Source: Haloferax larsenii JCM 13917 (GTDB lineage Archaea > Halobacteriota > Halobacteria > Halobacteriales > Haloferacaceae). Taken from it: a DNA stretch of 64,000 nucleotides. The stretch covers positions 12,164-76,163 of the forward strand of contig NZ_AOLI01000019.1 in the NCBI RefSeq assembly GCF_000336955.1, written 5' to 3'. This document shows positions 53,978 to 57,724 of the stretch, one piece after another. The position numbers and the translations under genes were made by a program. The notes beneath the pieces are model-generated. The model made no database searches. It was not told the DNA's origin and saw nothing but the letters and a program-made list of their open reading frames with translations. Each line of letters starts with the position of its first letter. Position 1 is the first letter of the stretch.

Positions 53978-54598
53978 CTATCGGCGCGCGCGAACTACGC
54001 CGACCCGGCCGTCGCCACGTTGGAGGCGGATTCCAGCGTCGACGACCCACTCGTGAGCGCGCCCTTCTCCGTGAAGGAGCACGTCGACGAAATCGGCGGG
54101 TTCGTCCACGTCGACGGCGAGGCGCAGTGAATCGACTTCGACGAACGTCGCCCCCGCCTCGTCGGCGAGGCGTCGGTGGTCGGCGATGGACGCACCGTGG
54201 TAATCGACCGAAAAGTCCGGGTGGCGGACGACGAGCGCGTTCGTGCCGCCACCGAGTCCGGGCGCAGCGACTACATCTCCCGCTGTCTCGAAGAGCCGAG
54301 CGAGAGCTTCGGGTGTCGCGAGCGCCAAATCCGCCATCACGACGGCGACAGGCGTGCCCGCCGCGAGTTGGTTGTTCACCGCGTCCGTGAGCGGGCGGTC
54401 GTCGACTGCGACGGGCGCGTCGATGGGTGCGTCGAGGGGAGCATCTGCGAGAACGAGTGGTGTCCCGCCGGCGTCACACACCGCATCGAGGACGTCTCGA
54501 AGCATCGCGACTGCGAAGTCGCGTCGCTCGGCGCCGTCGAGTAGTGGAGCGAGTCGCGTCTTCGGGGACTGTGCCCCGAAGGGAACGACCACTCGCAC
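53978..54598 (-). CDS. cofC: 2-phospho-L-lactate guanylyltransferase CofC
   Basis: The 206-residue protein has the CofC nucleotidyltransferase pattern: [19 protein letters not shown] at the start, then [14 protein letters not shown] and [14 protein letters not shown]. CofC activates 2-phospholactate with GTP to build the side chain of F420. It lies six bases after the membrane-protein gene that overlaps cetZ1, so F420 synthesis and cell-shape genes probably share a transcript. Confidence 0.92.
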
Positions 54599-54604
54599 GG
54601 AGAA

Positions 54605-55399
54605 TCAGCCCAGTTTGTCGTAGGTCTGCTGCTGGGACTTCCAGTAGAGGAAGCCACCGGCGAGCAGTGCGACGACGACGAGCCCACCTGCTGCGTAGAT
54701 GAGCAGTTGGGTCGTCTGGCTCGACTGCTTCGCTTTGTTCGCGCGGGTCTCCGCTTCTTCGGCCAGCGTCGTCGCGAGGTCGAAGTTGCCGCTGTTGTAG
54801 GCGTCAACTGCGTTGTCGAACGACTGCTGTGCCTCCTTCGTGTTCGCGCCACTCACCGAACTGATGGTCGCCTGCGCGCTGTCGAGTTTGGCGCGCGCGG
54901 CGGCACTGTCTTCGGTGTAGTGGTTCACGTCCCACGTCTGGATGTGGTTGCTAGAGCCACCTTCGCGGGTCTGGTTGAGCGAGACTGCGGTGAACGTCTG
55001 TGCGGGGTCGTAGGAGTACTCCTCGACCGACGGCACCGTTCCGGTCACCTTGACTTCGACTTCGCTCGTCCCGTCGTCAGCGACGACCTGTGCGCCACTG
55101 AAGTTCTGCCCGTCGAAGGACTGCTGGTCGACTTTTGCGCCCGTCTGGTCGTAGTACGTGACGGTCCACGTCACGTCTTCGAGCTCAGTGCTTCCGGCGA
55201 GCGACCACGATTCGAGTTGTGGGTTCTTGTACAGTTCGTCGAGCGTGACCGACGCGGTCACTTTCGAGTCGGCCTGTGCTTCGCTCGGGACGTCGTCGGA
55301 CGCGACGCTCACGGCTCCTGCCGGGGCCACGAGGGCCGACAGCAGCACGACGAGCGCGAGCGCCAGCTTAGAAGAGCGACTCCAGCTCGTCTTCGTCAT
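54605..55399 (-). CDS. Membrane-anchored surface protein overlapping cetZ1
   Basis: The 264-residue protein has a signal peptide (LALALVVLLSALVAPAGA), an extracytoplasmic beta domain with a helical second part (SAQATISSVSGANTKEAQQ, then FDNAVDAYNSGNFDLA, TPR-like), one membrane helix (LLIYAAGGLVVVALLAGGFL) and the short tail YWKSQQQTYDKLG inside the cell. Its start lies 32 bases inside the cetZ1 coding region, so translation is coupled. I do not recognise the family. The arrangement suggests a membrane partner for CetZ1 that could link the cytoskeleton to the envelope; this is inference. Confidence 0.8.
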   Translation of the reverse strand: MTKTSWSRSSKLALALVVLLSALVAPAGAVSVASDDVPSEAQADSKVTASVTLDELYKNPQLESWSLAGSTELEDVTWTVTYYDQTGAKVDQQSFDGQNFSGAQVVADDGTSEVEVKVTGTVPSVEEYSYDPAQTFTAVSLNQTREGGSSNHIQTWDVNHYTEDSAAARAKLDSAQATISSVSGANTKEAQQSFDNAVDAYNSGNFDLATTLAEEAETRANKAKQSSQTTQLLIYAAGGLVVVALLAGGFLYWKSQQQTYDKLG

Positions 55400-56555
55400 C
55401 GTTTATGAGGTTCTCCAAGTTCGAATCGCTCTCCTGACGGATCTCTTCGATGTTGTCTTGCGCCTCGATGGCGACCTGCTGGAGCTCCTTGATGCGTGGC
55501 ACGTTGGTCACGCCCGAAAGGAGGATGACACTGGCGACTTTTCCGGCGCCCGGAATCGGGTAGTCGCCGCCGCGAACTTCCATGGACCCGGTCTGCTCCT
55601 CGATCCATTTCCGCCCGCGCTCTATGCCTTTCCGGTTCAGATGCTCCGGCGGGCCAGCGAGTACGAGCAGCGCGCGCTCGGCACCTTCGATCTCACACGG
55701 GAGTGTGAGGCGGCCGAGTGCAGCCTTGCGTACGAGGCTGGTGATGCGGTTCGTCGTGTGGGCGGTGTCGAGGTTGTCGTCGGGTTCGTCACCGCCAGTG
55801 AGTCGCGACAGGAGGCCGCTACTCTTGTTCTCTCGCGGTTCGACACCCTCGGAGGCGTAGCCGACGGTCGAGACGCCGCCGCCAGCCAGTGTGTTGATAA
55901 TCTCCGAGGAGTCGACGACAGATTCTGCGACTTCCTGTCCGTCCTTGACCTCGCCGGCGCCGAAGAGGACGCCGAAGCGGTTGACGATTTCCTGGTTAAT
56001 CTCGTCGTAGCCGCCCTGCACCGATTCGCCGGTCTTTCGCCACGCGTCGTTGTCGAACACGAGGAGGTTGTCGACCTCGCGGACGAACGTCTGGAACGAG
56101 CGTGCGGCGTTGAGAGTGTAGATACCACCCTCGTCGGACCCCGGCAGGATGCCGAGGCCGTAGACAGGCTCAGTGTAGATGCGTTTGAGGTGTTTCGCGA
56201 GGACCGGCGCGCCGCCGGACCCGGTACCGCCACCGAGTCCAGAGACCACGAGGAAGGCATCGACTTCGTGAACTGGGATGCTATCGATTGCACCCTGCAC
56301 TTCGTCGATGTCTTCTTCGGCGATTTCCGCGCCTAGTTCGTTGTCCGCACCGACGCCATGCCCCTTCACGCGGGACTGGCCGATGAGGACGCGCTGGTCC
56401 TTCGGGATGTTTTCGAGTCCGAGCAAGTCGGCTTTCGCCGAGTTGACTGCAACTGCTGCACGGACGATGTCCGAGTTGCGTTGCCGGTCGTACTCGACGA
56501 ATTTGTCGACGATCTTTCCCCCGGCTTGCCCGAATCCGATCATTGCGAGCTTCAT
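55368..56555 (-). CDS. cetZ1: Tubulin-like cell-shape protein CetZ1
   Basis: The 395-residue protein has the tubulin/FtsZ GTP-binding core: MIGFGQAGGKIVDKF at the start and the signature LGGGTGSG at 107-114. E218, in the T7-type catalytic loop region, matches the site of the published E218A mutant of Haloferax CetZ1. CetZ1 controls the change from plate to rod cells and motility, and is not needed for division. The C terminus is an acidic tail (INDDEDELESLF). A cttatg box with flanking inverted repeats lies about 50 bases upstream. Confidence 0.93.
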   Translation of the reverse strand: MKLAMIGFGQAGGKIVDKFVEYDRQRNSDIVRAAVAVNSAKADLLGLENIPKDQRVLIGQSRVKGHGVGADNELGAEIAEEDIDEVQGAIDSIPVHEVDAFLVVSGLGGGTGSGGAPVLAKHLKRIYTEPVYGLGILPGSDEGGIYTLNAARSFQTFVREVDNLLVFDNDAWRKTGESVQGGYDEINQEIVNRFGVLFGAGEVKDGQEVAESVVDSSEIINTLAGGGVSTVGYASEGVEPRENKSSGLLSRLTGGDEPDDNLDTAHTTNRITSLVRKAALGRLTLPCEIEGAERALLVLAGPPEHLNRKGIERGRKWIEEQTGSMEVRGGDYPIPGAGKVASVILLSGVTNVPRIKELQQVAIEAQDNIEEIRQESDSNLENLINDDEDELESLF

Positions 56556-56818: not shown

Positions 56819-57724
56819 TCAGTTCCGTTTCGAGAGGAACTCCCCGAACGTCTTCAGCGACGATTTGTCGACGCCGAAGGAACCGATGTCGTTGTTTGCG
56901 ACCGCGTTGTCGATTTTGAGTGACCGGTACTGGTCGGCACCCATCGGGAAGCCGGGGACGAACCCGAGCGTCGTGAGACCGACCCGAGCCAGCGGCATCG
57001 GCAGCGGCACGATGGTGATGGACTTCCCTTCAGACTCGTATATCATCTCTGTCACGTCCCGGAGCGTGAGTATCTCCGGGCCGCCGATTTCGTAGGTCTC
57101 ACCCACGTGCGCGTCGTCTTCGATGGCTTCGCCGAACATGGGCGTGAGGTCGTCAATCCAGATTGGCTGGAACCGCGTCCGGCCGTTCCCGGGCAGCGGG
57201 TACAGGGGGACGCCGGGCGCGAACATCCCCTTGAGCTTCTTCGTGAAGTCGATTATCTCCGCGCCCTCGCCGAAGATAATCGACGGCCGGAAGATGGTCC
57301 AGTCGAGGCCGGACGACTTCACCGCGTTTTCGGCTTTTCCTTTCGACCGGATGTACGCCGTGTCTGCGTCCGGGTCCGCGCCGAGCGCACTCATCTGCAC
57401 TAGGCGGGGCACGTCGTGTGCCTCGGCGGCTTTCACGACGTTCTCGGTGCCTTGCCAGTTGACGATGTCGTGCATCCGGTAGCCGCCGTCCGGCTTGAAC
57501 AGCGGCGAGAGGGCGACGAGGTTCACGACGGCGTCTTTCCCCTCGAACGCGTCGGTGATGGAGTCGTAATCCGTGACGTCGCCGACGGCCGTCTCGACGC
57601 CCTCCGGGAGGTCCTCGCTAGTGGGGTTGCGTGACATCGCAGTCACGCTGTGCCCGCGCGACTTCAGCTCTCGGCAGAGGTTACTACCGACGAATCCGCT
57701 TCCGCCGACAACAAGGACTTTCAT
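56819..57724 (-). CDS. NDUFA9-like NAD(P)-binding protein (atypical SDR)
   Basis: The 301-residue protein starts with the Rossmann motif VVGGSGFVGSNLCREL and resembles the group named after the NDUFA9 subunit of complex I: RLVQMSALGADPDA, then YIRSKGKAENAVKSSGLDW and FRPSIIFGEG. Members bind NAD(P)H but their reaction is uncertain. It is on the same strand as cetZ1 but separated from it by 263 bases that include the cetZ1 promoter and a hairpin (cgacccga/tcgggtcg) that may end this transcript. Confidence 0.82.
   Translation of the reverse strand: MKVLVVGGSGFVGSNLCRELKSRGHSVTAMSRNPTSEDLPEGVETAVGDVTDYDSITDAFEGKDAVVNLVALSPLFKPDGGYRMHDIVNWQGTENVVKAAEAHDVPRLVQMSALGADPDADTAYIRSKGKAENAVKSSGLDWTIFRPSIIFGEGAEIIDFTKKLKGMFAPGVPLYPLPGNGRTRFQPIWIDDLTPMFGEAIEDDAHVGETYEIGGPEILTLRDVTEMIYESEGKSITIVPLPMPLARVGLTTLGFVPGFPMGADQYRSLKIDNAVANNDIGSFGVDKSSLKTFGEFLSKRN

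Follow-up and report, generated by a model that had tools for sequence, protein, structure and literature searches.

Genes for CetZ, the tubulin/FtsZ-like GTPases that give archaeal cells their shape, very probably form a conserved functional pair with a gene for a single-pass membrane protein, here called the CetZ partner. The pair was recognised in a window of 64,000 nucleotides of Haloferax larsenii JCM 13917, in which the partner gene begins inside cetZ1, and our survey found the same arrangement in other Halobacteria, in methanogens and as far as another phylum. We therefore favour the view that this protein represents the ancestral partner of CetZ at the membrane and that it probably binds CetZ through its short cytoplasmic tail. 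The mechanism by which CetZ acts on the cell envelope is described as unknown in PMC11621097, and the cetZ-linked membrane gene is a strong candidate for what connects the CetZ skeleton to the envelope.

All features of the window described below lie on the minus strand. The cetZ1 gene (55368..56555) encodes 395 aa with matches to Pfam Tubulin (2e-31) and CetZ_C (7e-82), and residues 1-395 of PDB entry 4B46 align to residues 1-395 of the protein from end to end. Membership in the CetZ1 subfamily is indicated by the combination of a tubulin GTPase domain with CetZ_C, the catalytic glutamate at position 218 and synteny with nolA and cof genes. E218 (codon 55902-55904), which the preliminary description had reported as intact, indeed reads as glutamate and is in register with 4B46. 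The protein ends in an acidic peptide, DDEDELESLF (55371..55400), which conforms to a [DE][IL]x[PS]LF pattern found in Halobacteria and outside. Upstream lies a nolA-like gene for an NAD-dependent epimerase (56819..57724; Pfam; PMC9856176, section 3.7), which occupies the same position in most of the halobacterial loci fetched. Downstream of the partner, the run continues with the F420 biosynthesis gene cofC (53978..54598; Pfam CofC, 1.4e-32), whose GTG start at 54598 stands 6 nt beyond the partner stop, the distance given earlier. A CetZ neighbourhood survey of 2023, as far as its main text goes, describes the cetZ1 region with nolA, cofC/G/H and pur genes (PMC9856176). That survey and the present work share this region, and the membrane gene is absent from the main text of the former. 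Our literature search, which covered PMC9856176 by its main text, likewise returned no published description of the partner.

The partner gene (54605..55399) encodes 264 aa, and its architecture was derived from sequence, alignment and an AlphaFold model (pLDDT 87). A signal peptide with one membrane helix had been proposed for it, and sequence and model agree on both. Residues 1-29 (55313..55399) constitute a Sec-type signal peptide, predicted to be cut between APAGA and VSV and carrying a PAAA motif that is conserved in the alignment. They are followed by an extracytoplasmic beta-sandwich (residues 31-161; 54917..55309), modelled in blocks mostly at pLDDT 87-98, and by a helical hairpin stalk (residues 163-205; 54785..54913), which leads into a long helix (206-257 in the model) bearing the hydrophobic transmembrane segment at residues 232-253 (54641..54706). 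Because the protein starts with a signal peptide, its C-terminus should lie inside the cell, leaving a cytoplasmic tail of 11 residues, KSQQQTYDKLG (54608..54640), which we propose as the CetZ-facing motif on account of its conservation in linked homologues. Signal peptide, beta-sandwich, helical stalk, one transmembrane helix and short tail recur across members, and a modelled methanogen partner is laid out in the same way except that its stalk is longer; beyond the modelled proteins, signal peptides and transmembrane helices were called by a simple hydrophobicity rule. Searches of Pfam, NCBIfam and PDB by sequence or fold for a known domain in the partner gave matches that were weak, generic or confined to helical and transmembrane segments, the fold matches in the PDB being generic Ig- or arrestin-like sandwiches. 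No Pfam family, SepF included, was assigned at E 0.001.

The overlap between the two genes is exactly the 32 nt first described (55368..55399), read in different frames: in the partner ATG (55399-55397), the AT comes from the GAT codon for Asp386 and the G is the first base of the Asp387 codon. This arrangement is conserved at other cetZ1 loci, since the partner starts inside cetZ1 in 107 of the 108 partner-bearing halobacterial loci, counting L174 as re-read. Overlaps of 32 nt (n=68) and 23 nt (n=33) predominate, followed by 11 nt (n=4, and a fifth once a misparsed stop was corrected) and 29 nt (n=1); in the genome G014, the partner starts 11 nt after the cetZ1 stop. All halobacterial overlaps (-32, -23, -11 and -29) share a single phase, phase 1. 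In nearly every partner-bearing locus, the aspartate codon that supplies the ATG at -32 or -23 is GAT, against a background of 7.3% GAT among the Asp codons of partner-bearing cetZ1 genes. Where the partner is absent, these positions are mostly GAC, with GAT in 0 of 49 genes at -32 and in 1 of 49 at -23, and 47 of the 49 genes have no start-frame ATG within their last 60 nt. On the cetZ1 tree, the partner changes between presence and absence nine times in all, six or more of them on branches with support, so that the upkeep of GAT and ATG does not go back to one historical accident. The overlapping start codon of the partner is thus under selective upkeep, and the position of the start inside cetZ1 in 107/108 loci together with the retention of a rare codon led us to reject a chance overlap. 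Conversely, the overlap does not explain the CetZ1 C-terminus. DDEDELE(S/P)LF is equally conserved with or without an overlapping partner, which rules out the overlap as the cause of its conservation and suggests that the peptide has other ligands.

Within Halobacteria, the partner is widespread and patchy. Homologues were detected in 201 of 391 species genomes, and 364 of the 391 have a protein matching at CetZ1 grade (E up to 1e-120). The conserved order is nolA-cetZ1-partner-cofC: among 157 parsed loci, the partner directly follows cetZ1 in 108 and is absent from 49. At GC-rich loci, a 'longest downstream ORF' rule gives counts that are too low: L387 (Halobellus rarus) was scored as lacking the partner, and L023, with which it overlaps in coordinates, holds a -32 pair. 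At the 49 partner-less loci, cofC or nothing recognisable comes next after cetZ1. Relocation of the partner in such genomes was considered and dismissed, as a profile search of 80 genomes returned three weak partial matches only. Most of family f4, genus g2 and other large groups carry a well-conserved CetZ1 and no detectable partner. CetZ1 therefore works without the partner, which is a dispensable, accessory link rather than a requirement. This bears on the initial suggestion that a membrane partner of CetZ1 would explain the shaping of the cell by its cytoskeleton: a membrane partner is the best reading of a pair conserved this broadly, but 'explain' is too strong a word where entire lineages keep CetZ1 alone.

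The pair extends well beyond the strain and the class in which it was noticed. A profile of 37 halobacterial partners was run over 295 genomes of the phylum and yielded additional, weak non-halobacterial matches (E 1e-4 to 2e-17). A CetZ gene lies directly upstream of nearly all of those fetched, with L237 as the exception and L233 cut by a contig end. CetZ played no part in this search, so the evidence is not circular. In the reverse survey, which started from CetZ_C matches and left out Thermococci, 53 of 60 CetZ genes outside Halobacteria were followed by a gene with a signal peptide and a C-terminal transmembrane helix. The distance was between -56 and +27 nt in 52 cases, and many had a -4 overlap or a spacing of 4-13 nt. 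The same crude rule was passed by 20 of 169 other ORFs in the surveyed loci. Four of the seven exceptions are CetZ copies in family f23, and the remaining three are of the Archaeoglobaceae type, one of them cut by a contig end. HHalign comparisons show that the partner groups are distant homologues (99.5%, E 1.8e-22; 99.3%, E 6.8e-21; 99.7%, E 1.2e-26).

A named scan located the pair in Methanoculleus, Methanoregula, Methanofollis, Methanolinea, Methanocalculus and Methanocorpusculum as well as in Archaeoglobales and Methanophagales/ANME-1. It also reaches Candidatus Pyrohabitans and a Hydrothermarchaeota record, in which the partner, with a tail ending in ELG, follows a tandem of cetZ and a cetZ-like gene. 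In L380:3001-6100 and L385:3001-6100, cetZ is followed after about 9 nt by a CetZ-like gene of 338 aa and, 15 nt further on, by the partner. This second gene had the appearance of an insertion in the Hydrothermarchaeota CetZ, a reading that was rejected, and the tandem is possibly a two-subunit CetZ. Not every CetZ gene has such a neighbour. No partner-type gene follows any of the other five CetZ genes of the H. larsenii genome (0/5) or the divergent second CetZ of Archaeoglobaceae (0/11), and the main CetZ genes of that family are mixed, with a partner in 5 of 11 whose tail reads WDELK or FDELK. At two of these main genes (L309, L312), a UbiX-like gene (MKLIVALTGASGQ..) at -4 or -1 nt takes the place of the partner. 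No cof neighbours were detected at the loci fetched outside Halobacteria, and CetZ and the partner were the only genes of the cluster whose adjacency was seen to persist from class to class and in a second phylum.

The tail is the sole portion of the partner that cytoplasmic CetZ could reach, and it is conserved in linked partners. These end in YDKLG, WDELG, WDELK or ELG. In Halobacteria, 91 of the 108 linked partners finish with D(K/R/E/P)L, followed by no more than one further residue, and leucine is the last or last-but-one residue in 107. DELG is the terminus of 44 of the 53 surveyed partners outside Halobacteria, and one more ends in DELF. Greater variability in some Halobacteria (YSKL, PSRLR, PTKLQ) and a different tail in ANME-1 (KRGIY) count against our reading of the tail. 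An alignment of 24 methanogen partners, chosen among those ending in DELG, has a mean column identity of 39% and 8 invariant columns, four of which are the final DELG. The motif is no general sorting tail, a possibility that we rejected because a YD(K/R)LG C-terminus occurs once in the H. larsenii genome.

Three Halococcus-like genomes (L115/G208, L116/G255 and L117/G249) have no CetZ, with only FtsZ-level matches, and keep the partner ectodomain between nolA and cofC; their tail now reads W(S/R)DR. The ectodomain hence has some use of its own. A second partner copy in G081 (L092; contig 7, minus strand) is unlinked to cetZ, again with the ectodomain kept, and ends in LPSEHR. In G316 (L052/L114), cetZ1 has been lost and the partner is a pseudogene with a stop, nolA and cofC remaining. 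The tail has thus changed where the linkage to cetZ is broken, in two independent events of tail loss, a pattern that is suggestive.

How, then, might the pair work? A single message would yield CetZ and, in step with it, the type I single-pass partner. Beyond the membrane, the beta-sandwich and helical stalk of the partner would be placed beneath or within the S-layer, and on the cytoplasmic side its short basic tail with the terminus (Y/W)D(K/E)LG would dock on CetZ polymers and thereby fix or recruit them at the envelope. The gene pair with its age and distribution, the constant architecture, the upkeep of the start codon and the conserved tail of linked copies are observations; that the tail touches CetZ directly, that the protein anchors or recruits CetZ and that the two genes share a transcript and are coupled in translation are inferences. 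In its widest form, the proposal holds that CetZ of Halobacteriota and Hydrothermarchaeota ancestrally came with a transmembrane partner whose (W/Y)D(E/K)LG tail binds the polymer and links it to the S-layer as a trans-envelope linker; we regard the chances of this as evenly balanced.

The same observations could be read with the dependence reversed, the partner being an envelope or S-layer protein (an adhesin, a receptor or a factor for archaellum or pilus sites) that a CetZ scaffold puts in place. The bulk of the protein is outside the cell, CetZ1 is kept where the partner is missing, and CetZ1 has been implicated in how archaellum and chemotaxis proteins are assembled and positioned (PMC11621097), all of which speaks for this reading; the ectodomain, however, has no functional match, and we consider this reading rather unlikely. 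Still less probable in our estimation is that the two genes are merely expressed together, co-regulated for envelope or shape physiology within the same pathway while their products work in different places and never touch. With cofC, cofG and nolA as neighbours, the cluster evidently includes genes whose products share no obvious complex, and the partner persists without CetZ in the three Halococcus-like genomes. Yet co-regulation alone sits poorly with the fact that it is CetZ and the partner, out of this cluster, that stay side by side across such distances, and with the concentration of half of the invariant methanogen columns in the one segment open to CetZ. Binding of CetZ by the tail remains our preferred account.

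Coupled translation, which the preliminary description took to be implied by the overlap, is plausible and, in our judgement, somewhat favoured as a possibility; the overlap itself does not establish it. In H. volcanii, complex subunits are 8-fold enriched among overlapping or closely spaced gene pairs (PMC10666635), which speaks for a partnership of the two proteins, and the termination-reinitiation pairs of this species are, like cetZ1 and its partner, unidirectional and overlapping, with complex subunits enriched among them (PMC6728339, PMC10666635). Reinitiation was measured there in native pairs with short overlaps, drops steeply with distance and is permitted from -8 to +6 nt, long overlaps being typically uncoupled at their origin (PMC10666635). 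The H. volcanii pairs are coupled at short overlaps or spacings, whereas cetZ1 and the partner share a long phase-1 overlap, and -32 nt lies outside the permissive window. At many methanogen loci, the spacing is -4 to +6 and falls within it. Other routes to the partner start found little support. A Shine-Dalgarno motif precedes it in 20 of 107 loci and is not conserved, which leaves a Shine-Dalgarno-driven start unsupported as a general feature. An independent leaderless promoter within cetZ1 is equally unsupported, as 7 of 107 loci carry a TATA-like motif at a suitable distance; upstream of cetZ1, such a motif occurs in 69 of 107, in a wider interval. RNA structure hiding the start gave no signal (z-scores -1.1 to 0.1, no conserved fold).

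For Halobacteria, it is accordingly conceivable, if somewhat doubtful, that the 32- or 23-nt overlap is frozen and has no function of its own, an explanation that competes with coupling only and leaves the pair untouched. The start would be hard to move since the signal peptide depends on its 10 N-terminal residues and 8 nt is the shortest overlap that phase 1 allows. The same argument has been made for long phase-1 overlaps retained in H. volcanii (PMC10666635), and all four overlap classes found here are phase 1. The scarcity of Shine-Dalgarno motifs and the missing conserved RNA fold fit as well, as do the shifts of the start, which has moved between positions -32 and -23 and in one case (G014) lies 11 nt past the stop. 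Against a general role for freezing, Methanomicrobiales have independently arrived at tight spacings, including many canonical -4 overlaps, which suggests recurring selection for coupling.

Known membrane attachments of tubulin-like polymers offer a useful comparison. SepF is small and cytoplasmic and lacks an ectodomain. In archaea, it serves as the membrane anchor of FtsZ (PMC8187382, PMC8178401). The job proposed for the CetZ partner is similar, namely tying a tubulin-superfamily polymer to the membrane, and SepF too is kept with its polymer across archaea; the partner differs from it in having a signal peptide, beta-sandwich, stalk, transmembrane helix and short C-terminal tail, and no sequence relation between the two was found. 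ZipA of gammaproteobacteria crosses the membrane once and contacts a tubulin-like polymer; its transmembrane helix is N-terminal and its cytoplasmic domain is large. The CetZ partner shares the single-pass plan in reversed topology, with only about 11 residues inside. If our proposal is correct, archaeal tubulin relatives would gain a transmembrane link whose topology is unlike that of either of these FtsZ anchors. The partner, found next to cetZ in haloarchaea as well as in methanogens, Archaeoglobales and ANME-1, also provides a concrete gene for work in the genetic model Haloferax volcanii, the short conserved tail is open to study at the peptide level, and the repeated natural losses amount to a ready comparative experiment.

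Finally, the -11 class of overlaps coincides with one genus in which CetZ is only ~61% identical and has a different C-terminus. This genus is probably Natronomonas, judged by gene content, as are our assignments to Halococcus and Halorubrum. The Natronomonas CetZ has been suggested to derive from CetZ1 in the main text of PMC9856176, and a linked partner in the -11 class supports such a derivation. In the same genus (L072, L084, L172-L174, L239 and L240), the CetZ1 C-terminus YGDDEE replaces the PLF/SLF peptide and the partner tails read PSRL(R/K/Q), so that both tails have changed in one lineage.
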